Source: Thermomicrobiales bacterium (GTDB lineage: Bacteria > Chloroflexota > Chloroflexia > Thermomicrobiales > UBA6265). Taken from it: a stretch of DNA of 32,722 bases. The notes under the pieces are model-generated. The model searched no databases, had not been told where the DNA came from, and worked only from the letters and a program-made list of their open reading frames with translations. This document shows, piece by piece, positions 14,503 through 29,204 of this stretch. The stretch spans positions 1 through 32,722 of the forward strand of contig JADYYO010000061.1 in assembly GCA_020853615.1 (NCBI GenBank), read 5' to 3'. Position numbers and translations under genes: made by a program. The stretch's first letter is position 1, and each line of letters opens with the position of its first letter.

Positions 14503-16242
14503 ATGAAGCGGTTGCTCAACGAGGCGTCCACCTTTCGGGAGGAGATGATCTCCGGCTTCGCGGCGGCCTACGTGCGCTACCTGCGGCGGGCGCCGGGCGC
14601 GTCGGGCGTCATCGCCAATGGCATCCCGGCGCGCGGGCGCGTCTCGGTCGTGGTCGGCGGCGGTTCGGGGCACTACCCGGCCTTCTACGGTCTTGTCGGG
14701 CAGGGACTCGCCTCGGGCGCGGCGATCGGCGACATCTTCACCTCCCCCTCCGGCGAGCAGTGCTACCGGGTCGGCAAGGCGGTCGACGGCGGCGCCGGCA
14801 TCCTCTTCACCTTCGGCAACTACAGCGGCGACGTCATGAACTTCGGCATGGCCGAGACCCGCCTGCGCGCCGAGGGGATCGACGCGCGCACGGTCCTCGT
14901 CACCGACGATGTCCTCTCGGCCAGACCGGAGGAGGCGGACCGGCGGCGAGGCATTGCCGGCGGCTTCTACGTCTTCAAGAGCGCCGGGGCAGCCGCGGCG
15001 CGCGGTGACAGCATCGCCGACGTCGAGGCGCTGACCCGGCACGCCAACGCGCGCGTTCGCACCGCCGGGGTCGGCTTCGCCGGCTGCACGGTGCCGGGGC
15101 AGGCGGAGCCCCTCTTCACCGTGGAAGCCGGCAAGATGGAGGTCGGGCTCGGCATCCACGGCGAGCAGGGCGTCCGCGTCGAAGAGCATCCCCCGGCGAG
15201 CGAGCTGGCCGCGATGCTGGTCGACATCCTCCTCGCCGAGACGCCCCCGGGCGCGGGGAGCGAGGCCGCCGTGCTAGTCAACGGCCTCGGGGGCACCAAG
15301 TACGAGGAGATGTTCGTCTTCTACAACGATGTCGCCAAATTGCTCGACCGGGCCGGCGTGCAGCCCTACACGCCGATGATCGGCGAGTTCGTCACCTCGC
15401 TCGACATGCCGGGCATGTCCCTCTCCCTCTTCTGGCTCGACGACGACCTGAAGCCGCTCCTCGACGCCACCGCCGCCTCACCCGCCTTCACCAGCATCGG
15501 CCCCGACGTCGCCGCACTGCGAACTTCGAATGGGGACGAGGTGGCGGCCGCGGCAGCGGCGGAATCGAGCGCGGCGGCTGCCGAGGAGGAGGAAGCGCCC
15601 GGCGGCGAGATGGGGGAGCGCGCGCGCGCCGCGCTGCGGCGCGCGCTGGCGGCGATGCAGGAGAAGGAGGGGGAGCTGGGCCGCCTCGATGCGGCCGCCG
15701 GCGACGGCGACCATGGCGCGGGGATGGTGCGCGGGATGCGCGCCGCCGTCGACGCCATCGCGGGGAGCGCGGGCAGCGCCCGCAGCAGCTTCACCCGCGG
15801 CGGCATCGCCTTCCAGAATGCGGCCGGCGGTGCCTCCGGAGCACTGGTCGGCGCGTGGCTGATCGCCATCGGCAACGCGCTGCCGGCAGACGACGCCGCG
15901 GTCGACGCCGCGGCGCTGGCGACGGCGATGGCCGACGCGCAGGCGACGCTGCAGCGGCTCGGGCAGGCGCAGCCGGGCGACAAGACGATGATCGACACCC
16001 TGGCGCCCTTCTCCGACGCCCTCGCCACCGCCGCCGCGAGCGGGGCATCGCTCCTCGACGCCTGGGCGGCGGCGCTGCCGGCGGCCAAGGCGGGCATGGA
16101 AGCGACGACCGATATGGTCAGCAAGCGGGGGCGCGCCTCGCGCCTCGGCGAGCGCTCGCGCGGCACCCAGGATGCCGGCGCCACCTCGATGTACTACGTT
16201 CTGCAGGCGTTCGGCGAGGGATTCGCGGACCAGGGCGAATAG
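14503..16242 (+). CDS. derK: Fused DhaK-DhaL dihydroxyacetone-kinase-type kinase, probable D-erythrulose kinase (DerK-like)
   Basis: The 579-residue protein joins a DhaK domain (residues 1-330) and a DhaL domain (about 370-575) through an Ala/Glu-rich linker. In DhaK, VVGGGSGHYPAFYG is the substrate-site loop and GLGIHGEQG holds the histidine that binds the ketone covalently. In DhaL, AAAGDGDHGAGM is the Asp-rich Mg-ATP site and QNAAGGASGALVG is the phosphate loop. Such ATP-dependent single-chain kinases act on dihydroxyacetone or, in mycobacterial threitol catabolism, on D-erythrulose. The tyrosine in GGGSGHYP (GHEP in classical DHA kinases) and the adjacent RpiB-like isomerase favour D-erythrulose. 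GGGGGAAG upstream supports the start. Family certain, substrate inferred. Confidence 0.87.
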   Translation: MKRLLNEASTFREEMISGFAAAYVRYLRRAPGASGVIANGIPARGRVSVVVGGGSGHYPAFYGLVGQGLASGAAIGDIFTSPSGEQCYRVGKAVDGGAGILFTFGNYSGDVMNFGMAETRLRAEGIDARTVLVTDDVLSARPEEADRRRGIAGGFYVFKSAGAAAARGDSIADVEALTRHANARVRTAGVGFAGCTVPGQAEPLFTVEAGKMEVGLGIHGEQGVRVEEHPPASELAAMLVDILLAETPPGAGSEAAVLVNGLGGTKYEEMFVFYNDVAKLLDRAGVQPYTPMIGEFVTSLDMPGMSLSLFWLDDDLKPLLDATAASPAFTSIGPDVAALRTSNGDEVAAAAAAESSAAAAEEEEAPGGEMGERARAALRRALAAMQEKEGELGRLDAAAGDGDHGAGMVRGMRAAVDAIAGSAGSARSSFTRGGIAFQNAAGGASGALVGAWLIAIGNALPADDAAVDAAALATAMADAQATLQRLGQAQPGDKTMIDTLAPFSDALATAAASGASLLDAWAAALPAAKAGMEATTDMVSKRGRASRLGERSRGTQDAGATSMYYVLQAFGEGFADQGE

Positions 16243-21734: not shown

Positions 21735-22151
21735 CTAGCGATTGAGCGCGAGGGCGATGCTCACGCCGAGGATGATCAGGACGACCAGGGTGAGGAGCGC
21801 GTAGCGCCGGTCGCCGAGCCGCCAGAAGTCGACGGCGGCGACGATCACCGTCACCACCGGGACCCCCATGAACCAGAGGATGGCCAGGTCGATGATGCCG
21901 GCGGAATCGCCGGCCAGGACCCGCGCCGGCACGTTGGTGATCCGGTCTGCCTGATGCGCGAGCGGCTCCCCCTTGACCACCGCGACCAGGATGCCGATGG
22001 CGAGGATCGCCGCGCCGATGCGAAAGCCCCAGGCGAAGACGCGCCCCGCCGCCTCGTAGAGGGGTGTCAGCCGCTCGGTGCGCGCGGCGAGCTCCGCGAT
22101 CTCCTGCTGCTGTGCGTCCGCCACGCCGGGCGCTGCCTGCCTGGCGCTCAT
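21735..22151 (-). CDS. DUF1634 family membrane protein, partner of TauE/SafE exporter
   Basis: The 138-residue protein starts at the ATG at 22151, which overlaps the stop of the exporter gene (ATGA). It has a short cytoplasmic N-terminus (LAARTERLTPLYEAAGRVF) and three membrane segments: FRIGAAILAIGILVAVV, IIDLAILWFMGVPVVTVIVAAVDFW and YALLTLVVLIILGVSIAL. DUF1634 genes commonly follow TauE/SafE genes, and the two products probably work together, though their joint role is not defined. The longer ORF in the track is a shadow of the exporter gene upstream of this start. Confidence 0.85.
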   Translation of the reverse strand: MSARQAAPGVADAQQQEIAELAARTERLTPLYEAAGRVFAWGFRIGAAILAIGILVAVVKGEPLAHQADRITNVPARVLAGDSAGIIDLAILWFMGVPVVTVIVAAVDFWRLGDRRYALLTLVVLIILGVSIALALNR

Positions 22152-22996
22152 GACTGCCCCGGCAGGGTGATCCCGAAGGCGCGCAACAGGAGCGACCCGC
22201 CCAGATAGAGGAGGATCAGCGAGAAGAGGAGGGCGAGGCGCTGCGCCCGGATGCGCCGCGTCAGGCGCGAGCCGATCTGCCCGCCGGCGAAGACGCCGAT
22301 GACCGCCGGCACGACGAGCGAGGGGTCGATCTTGCCGCCCGCGTAGTAGACGAAGACGGTCGCCACCGAGGTGATGCCGATCATGAAAGAGGACGTACCG
22401 ACGGCCGCCTTGAGGGGCACGCCCATCAGCACGTTCATTGTTGGCACCATCACCACGCCGCCACCAACCCCCAGCATCCCCGAGATGATCCCCGAGCCCG
22501 CGCCAACCCCGATGCCCCAGCCCGTTCTGATCGGGATGTAGCCGACCTCGCGGCCGATCGCCGGGTCGCGGAAAGCGGCGCCGAGCTCGAGGCGGTCGGG
22601 GACGTCGAGCGAGGGAGGCATCGCCGAGCGGTCGGGGCGCACAATCATCGAGATGGCGGCATAGACGAGCACCGCGCCGAAGACACCGTAGATGACGCGC
22701 GGATCGGCAACGACCCCGTAGAGCGCGCCGACGATGGCGCCGGTGGCCGCGGCGATCTGCAGCAGCATCGCCAGGCGCGGGTTCGTGAAGCGGCTGCGCA
22801 GGTGGTTGGTGGTGCCGACGATCGAGTTGGTGACAACGGCGACCGCGCTGGCTCCGACCGCGAGCTTCGGGTCTACGCCGAAGAAGAGGGTCAGGATCGG
22901 GACGAGAAAGACGCCGCCGCCCAGGCCGAGCATGGAGCCGAGGATGGCGGCCGTCGCCGCCACGATGCCGATTTCGAGCGAAAAGGCGAGATCCAA
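22148..22996 (-). CDS. TauE/SafE (TSUP) family sulfite/anion exporter
   Basis: The 282-residue membrane protein has the internal duplication typical of TSUP: LGSMLGLGGGVFLVPILTLFFG at the start and SGMLGVGGGVVMVPTMNVLMG in the second half, each with the GGG motif, and about eight membrane segments. TSUP members move sulfite, sulfoacetate or other small anions, or sulfur compounds. A TTG start at 22996 is chosen because GGGGAGGGAAAC precedes it and translation then begins directly with the first membrane helix; the ORF-track start adds 47 residues of non-membrane, out-of-family sequence. Coupled to the DUF1634 gene downstream. Transported anion unknown. Confidence 0.87.
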   Translation of the reverse strand: MDLAFSLEIGIVAATAAILGSMLGLGGGVFLVPILTLFFGVDPKLAVGASAVAVVTNSIVGTTNHLRSRFTNPRLAMLLQIAAATGAIVGALYGVVADPRVIYGVFGAVLVYAAISMIVRPDRSAMPPSLDVPDRLELGAAFRDPAIGREVGYIPIRTGWGIGVGAGSGIISGMLGVGGGVVMVPTMNVLMGVPLKAAVGTSSFMIGITSVATVFVYYAGGKIDPSLVVPAVIGVFAGGQIGSRLTRRIRAQRLALLFSLILLYLGGSLLLRAFGITLPGQS

Positions 22997-23067
22997 GTTT
23001 CCCTCCCCGCACGCCTTATAGCACCGCTCGGCAGCGCGCGCTAGAGGGGGCGCAAGCGGACTGCTGA

Positions 23068-23129: not shown

Positions 23130-23280
23130 CATCTCAAGAGCGTTCATGCGGCGGGCGCACCCGCGAGAGACTCTCGTGGGCGCTCCGGGGAAGCCGGTGC
23201 AAGTCCGGCACTGTCCCGCAACTGTGACGCCAGGCGACGAGCCGCCGGGCGGAGTCAGACACCCGACCCGCCGCGTCCAA
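23130..23280 (+). ncRNA. Cobalamin (B12) riboswitch
   Basis: The conserved core GAAGCCGGTGCAAGTCCGGCACTGTCCCGCAACTGT is the textbook B12-box region of cobalamin riboswitches, followed by GAGTCAGACACCCG in place of the usual GAGTCAGGA-ACCTGCC. An outer stem is visible: GCGGCGGG at 23148-23155 pairs perfectly with CCCGCCGC at 23267-23274. The element ends about 35 bases before the ATG of the barrel protein, whose ribosome-binding site is AAGGGAAAGGA. The downstream operon should be shut off when adenosyl- or other cobalamin is plentiful, as for B12 uptake genes. Exact 5' boundary is approximate. Confidence 0.93.
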
Positions 23281-23311
23281 CGCCCTTCGCGCGAAAGGGA
23301 AAGGACACGAT

Positions 23312-24382
23312 ATGCCGCGCCCATCGCCGGCCCGGTTGCGCCCGGCCATCCACGCTGGCGCCGCCCGGCTCGCCGCCGCCCTCCTCCTGGTCGTCCTCAC
23401 GGCGCTCTCGCCGCACGCCACGCTCGGGCAGACAGCCACGCCCGTCGTCCATGGCGCGGACGCGCATCTCGTCGCCGCGACCGACTGGCTCCTCGCGCTT
23501 CAGGACGACTCCGGCGCCTTCCCCGGCTTCACCGGCGAGCCCGACCCGGGCACCACGACCGACGCGGTCATCGCGCTCTACGCGGCGCGGGAGAGCGATC
23601 CGCGGGCCAGCGCCGCGCTCGAGCGGGCGGTCTCCTCCCTCGAGGGAGAAGCGAAGGGCTACGCCGGGATCGGCGCAGGGCAGGCCGCGAAGCTCGCCAT
23701 GGCGGCCGTCGCCGGCGGCCATGACCCGCGCGTCTTCGGCGGCGTCGATCTGCTGGTGGCGATGCAGGCGGTGCCGACGGAGACGATCGAGCACCCGATC
23801 CCCGGTATCTACGGCGCGGACCTCTACAGCCATGCGCTAGTCATCCTCGCCATCGCCGCCGCCGGGGAGCCGATCGCCGACGCGGCGATCGCGCCCTTCC
23901 ACGCGACCCAGAACGACGCCGGCGGCTGGGCCTTCGATGGCTCGACCGACGCCGGCGCGGCCGACTCGAACACCACGGCGCTGATCCTCCAGGCGCTCGC
24001 GGCGTCCGGCCACGGCGACGACCCGATGGTTGCGCGCGGCCTCGCTTTCCTGAAATCCCTCCTGGCGCCCGATGGCGGCTTCGCCTCGGGGACGACCGAC
24101 CCGCTCGTCGCCGACGCCAACTCGACGGCGCTCGTCATCCAGGCGCTCATCGCCACGGGTCAGAACCCGGCGGCGGCGGAGTGGGGGAACGCGCCGGCCG
24201 CGCTGGCCCGCTTCCAGACCCCCTCCGGCGGACTGCGCTATCTGGCGGACGACGAAGAGCCGAACCTGCTGGCGACGCTGCAGGCGATCCCGGCGCTCGC
24301 CGGCGCTCCCCTGCCGGTCGCCATCGGCTGCGCCGCGGGTGAATCCCCGGGGACGGGCGGATGCCTTCCGCTGGCGGCATGA
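23312..24382 (+). CDS. Secreted alpha/alpha-barrel protein (squalene-cyclase/transcobalamin fold), predicted B12-binding
   Basis: The 356-residue product has a signal peptide (LAAALLLVVLTALSPHATLGQ, residues 22-42) and then a repeating helix-pair pattern: LLALQDDSGAFPGFTGEPDPGTTTDAVIALYAA, QNDAGGWAFDGSTDAGAADSNTTALILQALAASG, LAPDGGFASGTTDPLVADANSTALVIQALIATG and FQTPSGGLRYLADDEEPNLLATLQAIPALAG. These QxxxGGF/W...TxxAL repeats mark the alpha/alpha-barrel shared by prenyltransferases, squalene cyclases and the N-domain of animal transcobalamin and intrinsic factor. Export, the B12 riboswitch and the DUF4430 protein encoded next point to cobalamin binding and not to terpene chemistry; no DxDD cyclase motif is seen. 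Its stop overlaps the next start. Function is inferred. Confidence 0.82.
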   Translation: MPRPSPARLRPAIHAGAARLAAALLLVVLTALSPHATLGQTATPVVHGADAHLVAATDWLLALQDDSGAFPGFTGEPDPGTTTDAVIALYAARESDPRASAALERAVSSLEGEAKGYAGIGAGQAAKLAMAAVAGGHDPRVFGGVDLLVAMQAVPTETIEHPIPGIYGADLYSHALVILAIAAAGEPIADAAIAPFHATQNDAGGWAFDGSTDAGAADSNTTALILQALAASGHGDDPMVARGLAFLKSLLAPDGGFASGTTDPLVADANSTALVIQALIATGQNPAAAEWGNAPAALARFQTPSGGLRYLADDEEPNLLATLQAIPALAGAPLPVAIGCAAGESPGTGGCLPLAA

Positions 24383-25065
24383 TCTGGCATACCGTCCGCC
24401 TCTGGCTGCTGCTCTCGCTGGCGACGCTCCTCATGGCGATCCTGCTGTCGCCAGCGCCGACACGGGCGGGCAGCACGCTGCATCATGCCGGGCTGATCGT
24501 CCGCGACGGCGAGGGTCGCGTCACCTACGCCTGGGTTCCGTTTTCAGAGGAGACGATCGACGGCATCGCCCTCCTGAAGCGGAGTGGCATCCCCGTCGTC
24601 ACCGTCGGTTTCGGTGCGCTCGGCGAGGGGGTCTGCTCTATCGCCGGCCAGGGGTGCGGCGCGGCAGAGTGCCGCCGCAACGTCTGCCAGGGGTCGGCGA
24701 TCGATGCTCCGTATTGGCAGTACTTCAAGCAGGACGCGAGCGACCCGGCGGACTGGAAGTGGCAGCCGCTCGGCGCCAGCGCGACGAAGGTCCGCGACGG
24801 CGACGTCTTCGGCTGGAGCTGGACGGCTCGCGAGCCGCATCTGCCCGGCCTGCCCGCGCGCGAAATCGCCAGTCTCGCCGGGGCGGGCGACGCAGCGGGG
24901 AATGCGCCTGCCACGCAGACGTATCTGCCAGAGGGGGTCTCCGCCGCGATCCCGGCGGCTCCCCCGGACGCGCGCACGACGGCGATCGCCTCCGGCATCC
25001 TGATCGTCATCGCCGCCTCGTCGCTCGCGCTCGTCAGGCGGCGACGCATGGAGGCGGCGGCGTGA
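24379..25065 (+). CDS. DUF4430 (transcobalamin C-terminal-like) protein, membrane-anchored
   Basis: The ATG at 24379 overlaps the preceding TGA (ATGA) and gives 228 residues: a signal segment (LWLLLSLATLLMAILLSPAPTRA), a DUF4430-like beta domain (EETIDGIALLKRSGIPV, GVCSIAGQGCG, APYWQYFKQ, WKWQPLGASATKVRDGDVFGWSW, residues 45-150), a Pro/Ala-rich stalk and a C-terminal membrane helix with basic stop (ASGILIVIAASSLALVRRRRMEAAA). PF14478 (DUF4430) is related to the C-terminal beta domain of transcobalamin, which closes over the bound vitamin. Four cysteines (VCS, GCG, ECR, VCQ) may form disulfides. Together with the barrel protein it resembles a transcobalamin split in two, tethered outside the membrane. 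Confidence 0.78.
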   Translation: MIWHTVRLWLLLSLATLLMAILLSPAPTRAGSTLHHAGLIVRDGEGRVTYAWVPFSEETIDGIALLKRSGIPVVTVGFGALGEGVCSIAGQGCGAAECRRNVCQGSAIDAPYWQYFKQDASDPADWKWQPLGASATKVRDGDVFGWSWTAREPHLPGLPAREIASLAGAGDAAGNAPATQTYLPEGVSAAIPAAPPDARTTAIASGILIVIAASSLALVRRRRMEAAA

Positions 25066-26102
25066 TGCGGGAGCCCTCCCGCCCGCTCGACCCGCGCGCC
25101 TGGCTCGTCTGGGCGACGGCGGCGAGCGTGCCGCCCCTCGTCGGGCGCAACCCCTGGCCCCTGCTGGCGACCCTCTGCGCCGTCCTCGGCGTCTGGGGAG
25201 TCTGGAGCGCGGGCGCGGCCGGGGCGCGCTGGCGCCCTCTGCTGCGGCTGGCGCTCCTCTTCGGCGCGGTGAGCGTCCTCTTCAACCTGCTCACGGCGCA
25301 CGTCGGCGATCTCGTCATCGCCGAGCTGCCGGAGGGGTGGCCGATCGTCGGCGGCCCGCTGACGCTCAACGCCCTGATCTACGGCCTGCTGAGCGCGATC
25401 GCGATCCTCTCGCTGGTCGCGGTCAGCGCGACGCTCGGCGCGACGCTCGACTGGAGTGTCGCGATCCGCCTGCTGCCGGAGCGGATGGCCCCGCTGGCGG
25501 TGGCCGGATCGGTCGCCTGGTCCTACCTCCCGCGAACGACGGTCGCCCTCACCGAGATCCGCGAGGCGCAGATGGCGCGCGGCTATCGGCCGCGCGGCCT
25601 GCGCGACGCCGGCCCCCTGGTCATGCCGCTGCTGGCGGGGGGGCTGGAGCGGGCGATGATCACCGCCGAGGCGCTGGAGGCGCGCGCCTTCGGCGTCCCG
25701 CTCTCGGCCGAGGCGCGCCCCCGGTCGTGGCAAGCCGCGCTCCTCCTCGCCGGCATCGTCGCCGCGCTCACCGGCATCTTCTGCGTCGCGCTCGGGCAGA
25801 TGCTCGCCGGGGCGGCGCTACTGGCGCTGGCGCTCGCCACGCTGGCGGCCGGCCTGCTCAGCGGGCGGCCCGCGAAGGGCGCGCTTCGGCGCACGCGCTA
25901 TCGCGACCCGGTCTGGGAGCGACCGGAGTGGATCGTGAGCGGCGTCTCGGCGGCGGTGCTCGCCGTGCAGATCACCCTCCTCGTCCTCGACCCGGCGGCG
26001 TTTCGCTACGAGCCCTACCCCTCCCTGACCGCGCCGGCGATCGACCTCCCCCTCCTGGCCGCGCTCGGCTTCCTCCTCGCGCCAGCGGCGGTGCGGCCAT
26101 GA
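25065..26102 (+). CDS. ECF transporter T component (EcfT/CbiQ-like) with C-terminal extension
   Basis: The 345-residue membrane protein has the EcfT coupling motif AQMARGYRPRGLRD and a second one, ALEARAFGVP, whose Ala-Arg-Gly / Ala-Arg-Ala-Phe-Gly arginines contact the ATPases. The N-terminal half shows four to five membrane segments (AWLVWATAASVPPLVG, LLRLALLFGAVSVLFNLL, LNALIYGLLSAIAILSLVAVSATLG). Typical EcfT is about 265 residues; here extra hydrophobic stretches follow (LLLAGIVAALTGIFCVALGQMLAGAALLALALATLAAGLL, then WIVSGVSAAVLAVQITLLVL and LLAALGFLLAPAAV). The ATG overlaps the previous stop by one base. It links the ATPases to a substrate-binding part that is not obvious here. B12 specificity is inferred from the riboswitch. 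Confidence 0.87.
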   Translation: MREPSRPLDPRAWLVWATAASVPPLVGRNPWPLLATLCAVLGVWGVWSAGAAGARWRPLLRLALLFGAVSVLFNLLTAHVGDLVIAELPEGWPIVGGPLTLNALIYGLLSAIAILSLVAVSATLGATLDWSVAIRLLPERMAPLAVAGSVAWSYLPRTTVALTEIREAQMARGYRPRGLRDAGPLVMPLLAGGLERAMITAEALEARAFGVPLSAEARPRSWQAALLLAGIVAALTGIFCVALGQMLAGAALLALALATLAAGLLSGRPAKGALRRTRYRDPVWERPEWIVSGVSAAVLAVQITLLVLDPAAFRYEPYPSLTAPAIDLPLLAALGFLLAPAAVRP

Positions 26103-27826
26103 CCGATCGCGCTCCGGGGGTCGCGGGCGATCCGCCCATCATCGCGTTTGAGAGCGTCACCTACGCCTATCCCGAGAGCGCGGCGCCGGCGCTGCGCGAG
26201 ATCGACTGGCGCGTGGCCCCGGGGGAGTTCGTGACGATCACCGGGCCGTCCGGCAGCGGCAAGTCGACGCTCCTTCGCTGTCTCAACGGGCTGACGCCCC
26301 ACTTCAGCGGCGGCACGTTCGATGGCGCCGTCACCGTCGCGGGGCACGACACCCGGCGCTACACCCCGCGCGCGCTCGCCCGCGTCACCGGCTTCGTCTT
26401 TCAGGACCCGGAGGCGCAGTTCGTTACCTCACGCGTCGACGACGAGCTGGCCTTCGGCATGGAGCAGCTCGGGGTACCGCCGCTGACAATGCGCAAGCGG
26501 GTCGAGGAGGTCCTCGATCTCCTCGGCATCGCCGCGCTGCGCGACCGGGAGATCGCCACCCTCTCCGGTGGCGAGCGGCAGCGGGTGGCAGTGGCGGCCG
26601 CCCTCGCGTTGCAGCCGGAGATCCTCGCCCTCGACGAGCCGACCAGTCAGCTCGACCCATGGGGCGCGGAGGAGGTGCTGGCGGCCCTGACGCGGCTGAA
26701 CGACGACCTCGGCCTGACGATCGTCCTCGCCGAGCACCGGCTGGAGCGGGTCGTCAGCCACGCCGACCGCCTGACCCTCCTCGACCGCGCGGGCCATATC
26801 GCGTCCGAAGGCCGCCCGCGAGATGTCCTTGCCGGGGCCGACCCGGCAATCCTGCCGGCGCTCCTCGCGCTCGGGCGGCAACTCGATTGGCAGCCGCTGC
26901 CGCTGACGGTCAAGGAGGGGCGCGCCGCCCAGCGCCGGGACGCGGCCGTCGGGCGCCTGCCGGCTCCCGCCCCGCCCGATCCTCCCGCGGCGACCGGCCC
27001 GGCCATCGTCGCCCTGCAGCGGGTGAGCGCAGGCTGGGGTCAGCGGAAGGTGCTGCGGGAGATCGACCTGGAGGTGCGGCCCGGCGAGCTGGTCGCGCTG
27101 ATGGGGCGCAACGGCTCGGGCAAGACGACGCTGCTGCGGCTCGTCGCCGGCCTGCACCGTCCGGCATCCGGGCGCGTGCTGCTTGAAGGCGCGGACACGG
27201 CACGCCTGCACCCGGCCGACATCGCCCAGACGACCGGTTACCTGCCGCAGAACCCCTCGGCTCTCTTCTTCGCCGAGACGCTGCGGGACGAGCTCGCCTT
27301 CACCCTGAAGCACAAGCGGGGCGCGGTGGCCGATCCCGAAGTGACGCTCGCCGCCCTCGGCCTCGCGCATGCGCTGGAGCGCAATCCGCGCGACCTGAGC
27401 GGCGGCGAGCGGGAGCGGGCGGCGCTGGCGGCGGTCCTCGTCGGCGCGCCGCGCGTCCTCCTCCTCGACGAGCCGACGCGCGGCATGGATGCCGCCCGCA
27501 AGCGCGCCCTGGCCACGACCCTGGCCCAACTCCGCGAGGAGGGGGTGGCGATCCTCCTAGCGACGCATGATGTCGAACTTGTGGCGGAGGTGGCGACGCG
27601 CGTCGTCCTCATCGGCGACGGGCGGGTCGTCGCCGATGGCGGCCCACGTGCCGTCCTCTCCGGCTCGCTCACCTTCGCCACGGCGATCAACAAGCTCTAC
27701 GGTGGCGGCTTCCTCACGCCGGATGACATCCTGGCGGGGTTCGGCCGCGACCGCTGGGCCGGATCAGATTCGATACGGGCTGACCTGGCACGAGACGACC
27801 GGATCACGCCGCATCGAATGCGGTGA
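26099..27826 (+). CDS. Fused double ATPase of an ECF transporter (EcfA-EcfA')
   Basis: The 575-residue protein has two complete ABC ATPase domains. The first (to about residue 265) has TGPSGSGKSTLLRCLNG, FVFQDPEAQFVTSRVDDELAFGMEQ, LSGGERQRVAVAAAL and LALDEPTSQLDP. The second (about 300-530) has LMGRNGSGKTTLLRLVAG, YLPQNPSALFFAETLRDELAF, LSGGERERAALAAVL and LLLDEPTRGMDA. The Q-loops followed by DELAF are the ECF-type fingerprint. A Pro/Ala-rich linker joins the domains. It starts four bases before the EcfT stop (ATGA), completing an operon in which all four genes are coupled. The last residues after TPDDILAGFG may be read-through tail. Confidence 0.92.
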   Translation: MTDRAPGVAGDPPIIAFESVTYAYPESAAPALREIDWRVAPGEFVTITGPSGSGKSTLLRCLNGLTPHFSGGTFDGAVTVAGHDTRRYTPRALARVTGFVFQDPEAQFVTSRVDDELAFGMEQLGVPPLTMRKRVEEVLDLLGIAALRDREIATLSGGERQRVAVAAALALQPEILALDEPTSQLDPWGAEEVLAALTRLNDDLGLTIVLAEHRLERVVSHADRLTLLDRAGHIASEGRPRDVLAGADPAILPALLALGRQLDWQPLPLTVKEGRAAQRRDAAVGRLPAPAPPDPPAATGPAIVALQRVSAGWGQRKVLREIDLEVRPGELVALMGRNGSGKTTLLRLVAGLHRPASGRVLLEGADTARLHPADIAQTTGYLPQNPSALFFAETLRDELAFTLKHKRGAVADPEVTLAALGLAHALERNPRDLSGGERERAALAAVLVGAPRVLLLDEPTRGMDAARKRALATTLAQLREEGVAILLATHDVELVAEVATRVVLIGDGRVVADGGPRAVLSGSLTFATAINKLYGGGFLTPDDILAGFGRDRWAGSDSIRADLARDDRITPHRMR

Positions 27827-27962: not shown

Positions 27963-29126
27963 CTACGCGGCCGCCGTCGCTTCCATCGTGGGGCAAGACG
28001 GCGGCATCATCTCCGCCGTTGCGGTCGCCCCGGAGGCCCCCATCTCGATCCGGCCGATGATTCCCTGCCCCTGGTCGGCGCCAATCCCGGGGATCGACAC
28101 GTAGAGCGCGCCGTCGGGGCCGAAGGCGAGCGAAACGGGGAACATCAGCCCGCTCGCGACCTCCTCCTGGCTGTCACGCTCGGTCTGGCGCACGATGCGG
28201 CCGCTGCCCGGCGCCATGAAGGGGGGTTCCTGCAGATTCCCGGTCGAGATCTCCGTGGCGTACAGCGTGCCATCCGGGCCGACCGCGACATCGGTCACGG
28301 CCGTCAGCCCGGACCACACATCGGTCACCGTGCCATCCGGCGCGACGTGGATGACCTTGCTGGCGCCATCCGGGTAGGGCACCGGCGTCAGGAACCCGAC
28401 GTAGACGCCGCCCTGCGGCGCGGCCACCAGGCCGGTCGGCACGCGATGCTCCGCGGAGAGGTCAACGATGCGGGTGACCGTCCCATCCAGCGCGACATTC
28501 AGAAGCTGGCCACTGTTGGGATCGCCGACCCAGAATGAGCCGGTCGCGGGGTCGGCGACCAGGCTGAACCCGGCGGCGTCCGGATCATGGTCGGGGGGAA
28601 GGACCGCGACCGGGTTCGCCCGCACCCACGCGGAGAGGTCGGCGACCAGCTCGGCGGTGCCGTCGGCGAGGATGCGGTAGACCCCGGCGGGATGGGCGGC
28701 GTTGCCATGCGCCTCGCCGCCGCCATCGATCGAGGCGTAAAGCTGCCCGTCGAGAATCGCCAGATCCTCGACCCCGAGCACCTCGCCGACCGCCGTCACC
28801 ACCGACGGCAGATTGCCGGCCACCGGGACGGGGCACCCCGCCTCGATGCGGACGACGCTGGCGGTCAGACCACCGTGAAATGGACCCACGGGGGGGGCCG
28901 CGACCGGCGTCCCGGGCATCGTGCCGCCCGTGCCGGCCTGCGCCACGTAGAGCGTGCCATCGGGCGCCCAGACGACCCCGCGCGGATTGACGAGCCCCGC
29001 CGCGATGGGCGTGACCGCTGCTCCGCTCACTCCGGTGCCCGGTGTCGATTCCTGAGCGAGGGCGCGAGGAGCCAATAGTGTCACGAGGAGGACGAAAAGC
29101 AGAAGGGAGCGGAGCGAACGCGACAT
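27963..29126 (-). CDS. Secreted ScyD/ScyE-family beta-propeller protein
   Basis: The 387-residue product starts at the ATG at 29126 (GGAGG six bases upstream) with a signal peptide SLRSLLLFVLLVTLLAPRALAQ. The mature part repeats NHL-like propeller blades: NPRGVVWAPDGTLYVAQAG, LAILDGQLYASIDGGG, GVYRILADGTAELVADL, AVGPDGTLYATEIS and LAFGPDGALYVSIPG. These features and the GVVWAPDGTLYVA opening match ScyD/ScyE-family proteins named after cyanobacterial scytonemin genes; the bacterial homologues elsewhere have no defined role. It converges on the end of the ECF operon with a 136-base gap that shows no clear terminator. Confidence 0.87.
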   Translation of the reverse strand: MSRSLRSLLLFVLLVTLLAPRALAQESTPGTGVSGAAVTPIAAGLVNPRGVVWAPDGTLYVAQAGTGGTMPGTPVAAPPVGPFHGGLTASVVRIEAGCPVPVAGNLPSVVTAVGEVLGVEDLAILDGQLYASIDGGGEAHGNAAHPAGVYRILADGTAELVADLSAWVRANPVAVLPPDHDPDAAGFSLVADPATGSFWVGDPNSGQLLNVALDGTVTRIVDLSAEHRVPTGLVAAPQGGVYVGFLTPVPYPDGASKVIHVAPDGTVTDVWSGLTAVTDVAVGPDGTLYATEISTGNLQEPPFMAPGSGRIVRQTERDSQEEVASGLMFPVSLAFGPDGALYVSIPGIGADQGQGIIGRIEMGASGATATAEMMPPSCPTMEATAAA

Positions 29127-29204
29127 CGATGCCTCCGTTCTGAACTTCACGCCGATGCGACGCGTCACAACGTACGACGATCTCTGGTCACATCGGTGCG
29201 TCGC

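Follow-up and report, generated by a model that had tools for sequence, protein, structure and literature searches.

The four-gene operon downstream of a cobalamin riboswitch in the source genome most probably encodes a riboswitch-controlled ECF-type importer for the salvage of vitamin B12 (cobalamin/corrinoid), equipped with a dedicated extracellular capture pair. In the proposed mechanism, low B12 would lead the riboswitch to permit expression of the operon. An exported alpha/alpha barrel and a membrane-anchored beta-grasp protein would act as a split transcobalamin that sandwiches B12 at the cell surface, and the pair would hand B12 to a distinct CbrT-like S component whose gene lies elsewhere in the genome, beside nrdJ. 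The S component would couple with EcfT and the fused ATPases EcfA-EcfA', with ATP driving uptake. We infer that B12 is bound by the pair, that the two proteins form a complex and pass B12 to the S component, and that this S component works with this ECF module. The original prediction, a split bacterial transcobalamin feeding an ECF transporter under B12 control, is supported overall, and the case for it is stronger than could be known when it was made.

The window, that is, the whole stretch of DNA analysed, comprises 32,722 nt of contig JADYYO010000061.1 (assembly GCA_020853615.1); the source genome (G000) is 4.23 Mb. The operon contains the following features.

23187-23264, + strand: RF00174 aptamer of a cobalamin riboswitch, in the 5' leader; the barrel start codon follows after 47 nt
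23312-24382, + strand: barrel coding sequence, exported alpha/alpha barrel of 356 aa, SCO2321-like, putative analogue of the transcobalamin alpha domain
24379-25065, + strand: beta protein coding sequence, 228 aa from the ATG at 24379 (the open reading frame from 24361 gives 234 aa), SCO2322-like
24481-24900, + strand: conserved ligand-type domain of the beta protein, from alignments A2 and A5 and the AlphaFold2 model
25062-26102, + strand: EcfT, transmembrane coupling subunit of 346 aa, from PF02361 and hydropathy
26099-27826, + strand: EcfA-EcfA', ATPases fused in one protein of 575 aa with two nucleotide-binding domains, from two ABC_tran matches and TIGR04520

All four genes are linked by start/stop overlaps: ATGA between the barrel and the beta protein, GTGA between the beta protein and EcfT (for which the ATG at 25065 is an alternative start), and ATGA between EcfT and EcfA-EcfA'. 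Together with the aptamer score, these overlaps bear out the predicted arrangement of a riboswitch and four overlapping genes. On the opposite strand, the operon is flanked by a TauE/SafE-type transporter (window 22148-23011, - strand) and an NHL/SMP-30-like exported protein (window 27963-29168, - strand). A dihydroxyacetone kinase (Dak1-Dak2) gene is located at window 14503-16242, and a plasmid search gives no match.

The aptamer matches RF00174 with 41.7 bits in cmscan (E 2e-7), above the gathering score of 31.5, and is the sole cobalamin riboswitch detected across the 4.23 Mb genome. A scan of the + strand finds no terminator after the aptamer, making translational control the likelier mode; the riboswitch therefore probably acts at translation initiation. 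Among relatives, scanned for operons other than those of Dehalococcoidia type, every B12 aptamer is positioned ahead of the barrel. The aptamer reaches the gathering score in most relatives, is present in 10 of 10 loci from other Chloroflexota and 9 of 10 mostly Actinomycetota loci, and falls just under the threshold in all five Thermomicrobiaceae-type loci. Unrelated regulation of homologous operons, which would speak against the original prediction, is thus not what we see, as nearly all scanned loci carry a B12 aptamer. In Dehalococcoidia-type operons (our own reading of small Chloroflexota genomes), a winged-helix MarR-like gene is located upstream (L185:8110-8895, L188:6502-7284, L187:7266-8057, and L192:852-1646), and the L188 protein carries DUF7839. 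This gene may substitute for riboswitch control.

The barrel has a single N-terminal hydrophobic segment for export, and hydropathy reveals a second, internal segment (residues 175-193) within the barrel. It matches SCO2321_fam at 2.6e-24, under that family's cut-off, and SQHop_cyclase_C/Prenyltrans weakly. The export-type segment and the cyclase-type matches are in accordance with the predicted secreted alpha/alpha barrel. However, the nearest sequence relative of the barrel is squalene-hopene cyclase, not transcobalamin, which counts against the transcobalamin reading and favors an exported terpene cyclase or prenyltransferase whose link to the ECF genes is incidental. This alternative is extremely improbable. 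The catalytic DXDD motif of squalene-hopene cyclase (DVDD) aligns with DANS in the barrel family, indicating that the cyclase acid is lost; the barrel thus lacks the active site named in advance as evidence against a capture protein, and both the cyclase and the incidental-linkage readings are disfavored. In addition, the association of the family with ECF genes and B12 aptamers is conserved, and one homologue is fused with DUF4430 (L187). Some barrel genes (L024, L029, L035, L053, and similar) have long C-terminal repeat extensions that are Y/W/G-rich around a conserved HN-C motif.

The beta protein has N-terminal and C-terminal hydrophobic segments by hydropathy, corresponding to export and a membrane anchor. 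It had been described as a membrane-tethered DUF4430 protein, and the anchor stands. The DUF4430 assignment stands by a different route: a Pfam search matches the window protein to no family, leaving it below the gathering cut-off of PF14478 (DUF4430), and PF14478 is absent from the families matched by 37 relatives; SCO2322_fam is matched weakly, below its cut-off. When the 37 window-type domains are compared with nine PF14478-type domains by hhalign, the score is 38.1 with a probability of 84.6%; 150 column shuffles average 10.8 and reach 23.8 at most. In Dehalococcoidia-type genomes, a true PF14478 protein occupies the same slot between the barrel and EcfT, with the S gene after EcfA-A'. The profile-profile comparison thus points to remote homology, and the beta protein is a predicted divergent DUF4430/SLBB domain; these controls, the same-slot proteins, and the transcobalamin-like fused homologue described below all argue that the assignment holds up.

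The ligand-type domain consists of two strands, a helix, a hairpin, and then further strands, with four conserved cysteines. These cysteines of the beta protein (window 24379-25065) probably form disulphides. In the AlphaFold2 model of the beta protein (pLDDT 91), the order of strands and helix agrees with the SLBB beta-grasp core and its beta-hairpin insert after the helix. The model alone has no significant PDB match in Foldseek, and no transcobalamin is among the 50 matches listed, which counts against the assignment; searching PDB sequences with either the beta protein or its profiles returns nothing useful.

At two loci, the barrel and the beta domain are joined in one chain. The barrel is joined to PF14478 in a single protein at L187, and two barrels are joined to a window-type beta domain at L126. 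For the second fold prediction, the L126 barrel-beta piece was chosen over the window barrel, using, of several alignment compositions, one that keeps the beta rows in place. The resulting model has a pLDDT of 85.7. In the PDB, transcobalamin and haptocorrin chains make up its 13 best matches, which cover ~475 columns and both domains, and cyclases rank after them. The transcobalamin fold and domain order are found in this fused homologue only; in the window, the single-protein architecture of barrel plus C-terminal beta-grasp is divided between two separate proteins. The domain orientation of the model counts against the comparison, since it differs from that of transcobalamin by an rmsd of ~22 Å, with a linker pLDDT <50, and we claim no interface. 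PDB sequence searches with the fused proteins match cyclases, not transcobalamin. Judging from the L126 model, the two domain types of transcobalamin are likely present in the window as two exported proteins, as originally proposed. Animal transcobalamin, haptocorrin, and intrinsic factor share with the window pair an exported alpha/alpha barrel and a beta-grasp domain. In contrast to these carriers, the pair consists of separate proteins, the beta one membrane-anchored, that are encoded with an importer and are putative B12 binders; the window beta domain is also divergent below Pfam detection and has extra conserved cysteines.

EcfT and the fused EcfA-EcfA' were correctly recognized in the original prediction. 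EcfT matches PF02361 (CbiQ) at 1.4e-11, as an ECF transmembrane protein should, and hydropathy indicates a C-terminal membrane extension to the CbiQ family. EcfA-EcfA' contains two ABC_tran domains (3e-62) and matches the ECF_ATPase_1 equivalog TIGR04520 at 6.9e-106, above its cut-off. The permease of the operon is EcfT, and no FecCD-type permease, as expected of BtuFCD, is present in it. The proposal that the system stands in place of BtuF/BtuCD is borne out in part. Five near-complete relatives with the system (G033, G037, G040, G042, and G052) have no FecCD permease over the cut-off, and another (G003) has a sub-threshold match only. The source genome, however, retains one strong FecCD match elsewhere, with no substrate assigned, which counts against replacement there.

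An ECF importer requires an S component, and the window operon contains no S component gene. The earlier reading had missed this component. In the source genome, an S homologue is located at G000:C74:17005-17703, unlinked to the operon, with a PF07155 match below the cut-off. It sits just upstream of nrdJ, the gene for a B12-dependent ribonucleotide reductase of class II. Seven genomes have S and nrdJ as same-strand neighbors, with 395-708 nt separating the S match from the nrdJ domain, and in two more the genes are ~2 kb apart. The nrdJ gene beside the S gene (L160:1115-5674, G000:C74) contains an intein that bears a LAGLIDADG domain. A search with the protein of one in-operon relative finds S homologues in 47 of 61 genomes. 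Barrel and S occur together in 41 of the 61, barrel alone in 4, S alone in 6, and neither in 10 (Fisher p 6e-5, uncorrected for relatedness). Across the 61 genomes, presence of the barrel is not correlated with that of nrdJ, which counts against the preferred explanation. In many Anaerolineae operons, the S gene (PF12822) lies between the beta gene and EcfT; in others, and in Actinomycetota, it follows EcfA-A'. The pairing of the unlinked S component of the source genome with this ECF module is therefore suggested by relatives.

The location of the S gene outside the window operon would also be expected if the ECF module were shared (group II) by several vitamins, with the barrel and the beta protein unrelated to transport. 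We consider this very unlikely, since one operon holds the S gene, the pair, and the module in other Chloroflexota and in Actinomycetota, and since a B12 aptamer over the whole operon would starve the cell of other vitamins when B12 is plentiful. ECF-CbrT of Lactobacillus delbrueckii is likewise an ECF B12 importer, and its cbrT gene belongs to an nrdJ cluster, much as the S gene here neighbors nrdJ; it differs in that its module is shared with other vitamins, and the available part of the source describes no barrel/beta pair (PMC5997447).

As EcfT belongs to the CbiQ family, and B12 riboswitches elsewhere in bacteria also control cobalt/nickel transporters (PMC2667541), the operon could instead encode a B12-controlled cobalt ECF importer of the CbiMNQO type, in which the two exported proteins serve as accessory factors. 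However, CbiM is found neither in the source genome nor in its family, which disfavors the cobalt-import reading. CbiC has no match in the source genome, hence no sign of cobalt-requiring corrin-ring synthesis, and exceeds its cut-off in only one of 61 genomes (G038), which itself has neither barrel nor S. The lack of CbiC and CbiM fits salvage of B12, not import of cobalt. In addition, EcfT scores 26 for TIGR02454 (CbiQ), whose cut-off is 112, the S component is a vitamin-type one encoded beside nrdJ, and the exported pair is transcobalamin-like. Cobalt import is therefore highly improbable.

With B12 salvage as the preferred reading, the main ligand may be considered. A B12 precursor or other cobamide, for example cobinamide, in that role would accord with the known ECF-CbrT, which also takes cobinamide (PMC5997447), and with the presence of cobS and a cobC-like gene within one related operon; another related operon contains cobA. 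On the other hand, the nrdJ product encoded beside the S gene needs adenosylcobalamin, and we regard a precursor as main ligand as unlikely. It is a shade of the preferred explanation, not its opposite, and the ligands are not separable computationally.

Co-occurrence of the four genes across genomes was named with the original prediction as a check, and operons with a B12 aptamer are indeed found in Thermomicrobiales, other Chloroflexota, and Actinomycetota. The barrel is present in 45 of 61 related genomes. In the 40 loci taken from them, gene order agrees throughout: 32 contain all four genes, and in the other 8 the locus runs into a contig end, as judged from contig coordinates. A scan of named genomes gives 78 loci from Thermomicrobiales, Herpetosiphon, Oscillochloris, Anaerolineae, other Chloroflexota, and Actinomycetota. 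At six loci (L103, L106, L108, L119, L121, and L129), the barrel directly precedes EcfT and a beta gene is not detected, which counts against the preferred explanation. One further locus encodes three barrel repeats within one protein (L123:7647-10475); two beta-type genes come after it, and ECF genes are not detected there.

The general idea is already known. Burroughs et al. 2007 (PMC1796856) proposed B12 scavenging by bacterial transcobalamin-like SLBB proteins, often encoded with toroids and CbiO/CbiQ genes, in a clade reported in low-GC Gram-positives, planctomycetes, and euryarchaea. As here, these SLBB (DUF4430) proteins are exported, have a beta-grasp fold, are often accompanied by an alpha/alpha toroid, and are encoded alongside CbiO- and CbiQ-like genes in operons, and their hosts are usually without key B12 synthesis enzymes. 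The present operon is a divergent split variant of the predicted kind. It differs in its hosts (Chloroflexota and Actinomycetota), in being split and sequence-divergent, and in having B12 aptamers and an identified S component; the nrdJ neighbor of the S gene and the fused forms are further additions. The titles and abstracts of DUF4430-naming papers in the part of the literature covered do not describe the split variant. The NCBIfam families SCO2321 and SCO2322, to which the barrel and the beta protein are related with scores under the family cut-offs, are named by locus tag only.

These results give the SCO2321 and SCO2322 proteins a testable role in B12 uptake in two large phyla and point to a widespread, little-studied means of scavenging B12 in Chloroflexota and Actinomycetota. 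If true, a binding-protein stage would be placed ahead of the ECF importer. ECF transporters are understood to capture their substrate in the membrane S component. We give about even chances to an ECF importer that depends on an extracellular split binding protein, in which the two halves would close on B12 and the complex would dock on the S component for delivery; capturing the substrate in a soluble stage would be a mode new to the ECF class. The natural split and fused forms allow tests of how transcobalamin works and of where the animal carriers originate, and, if the proposal is true, the source from which animal transcobalamin arose would have a living relative in the bacterial operon.
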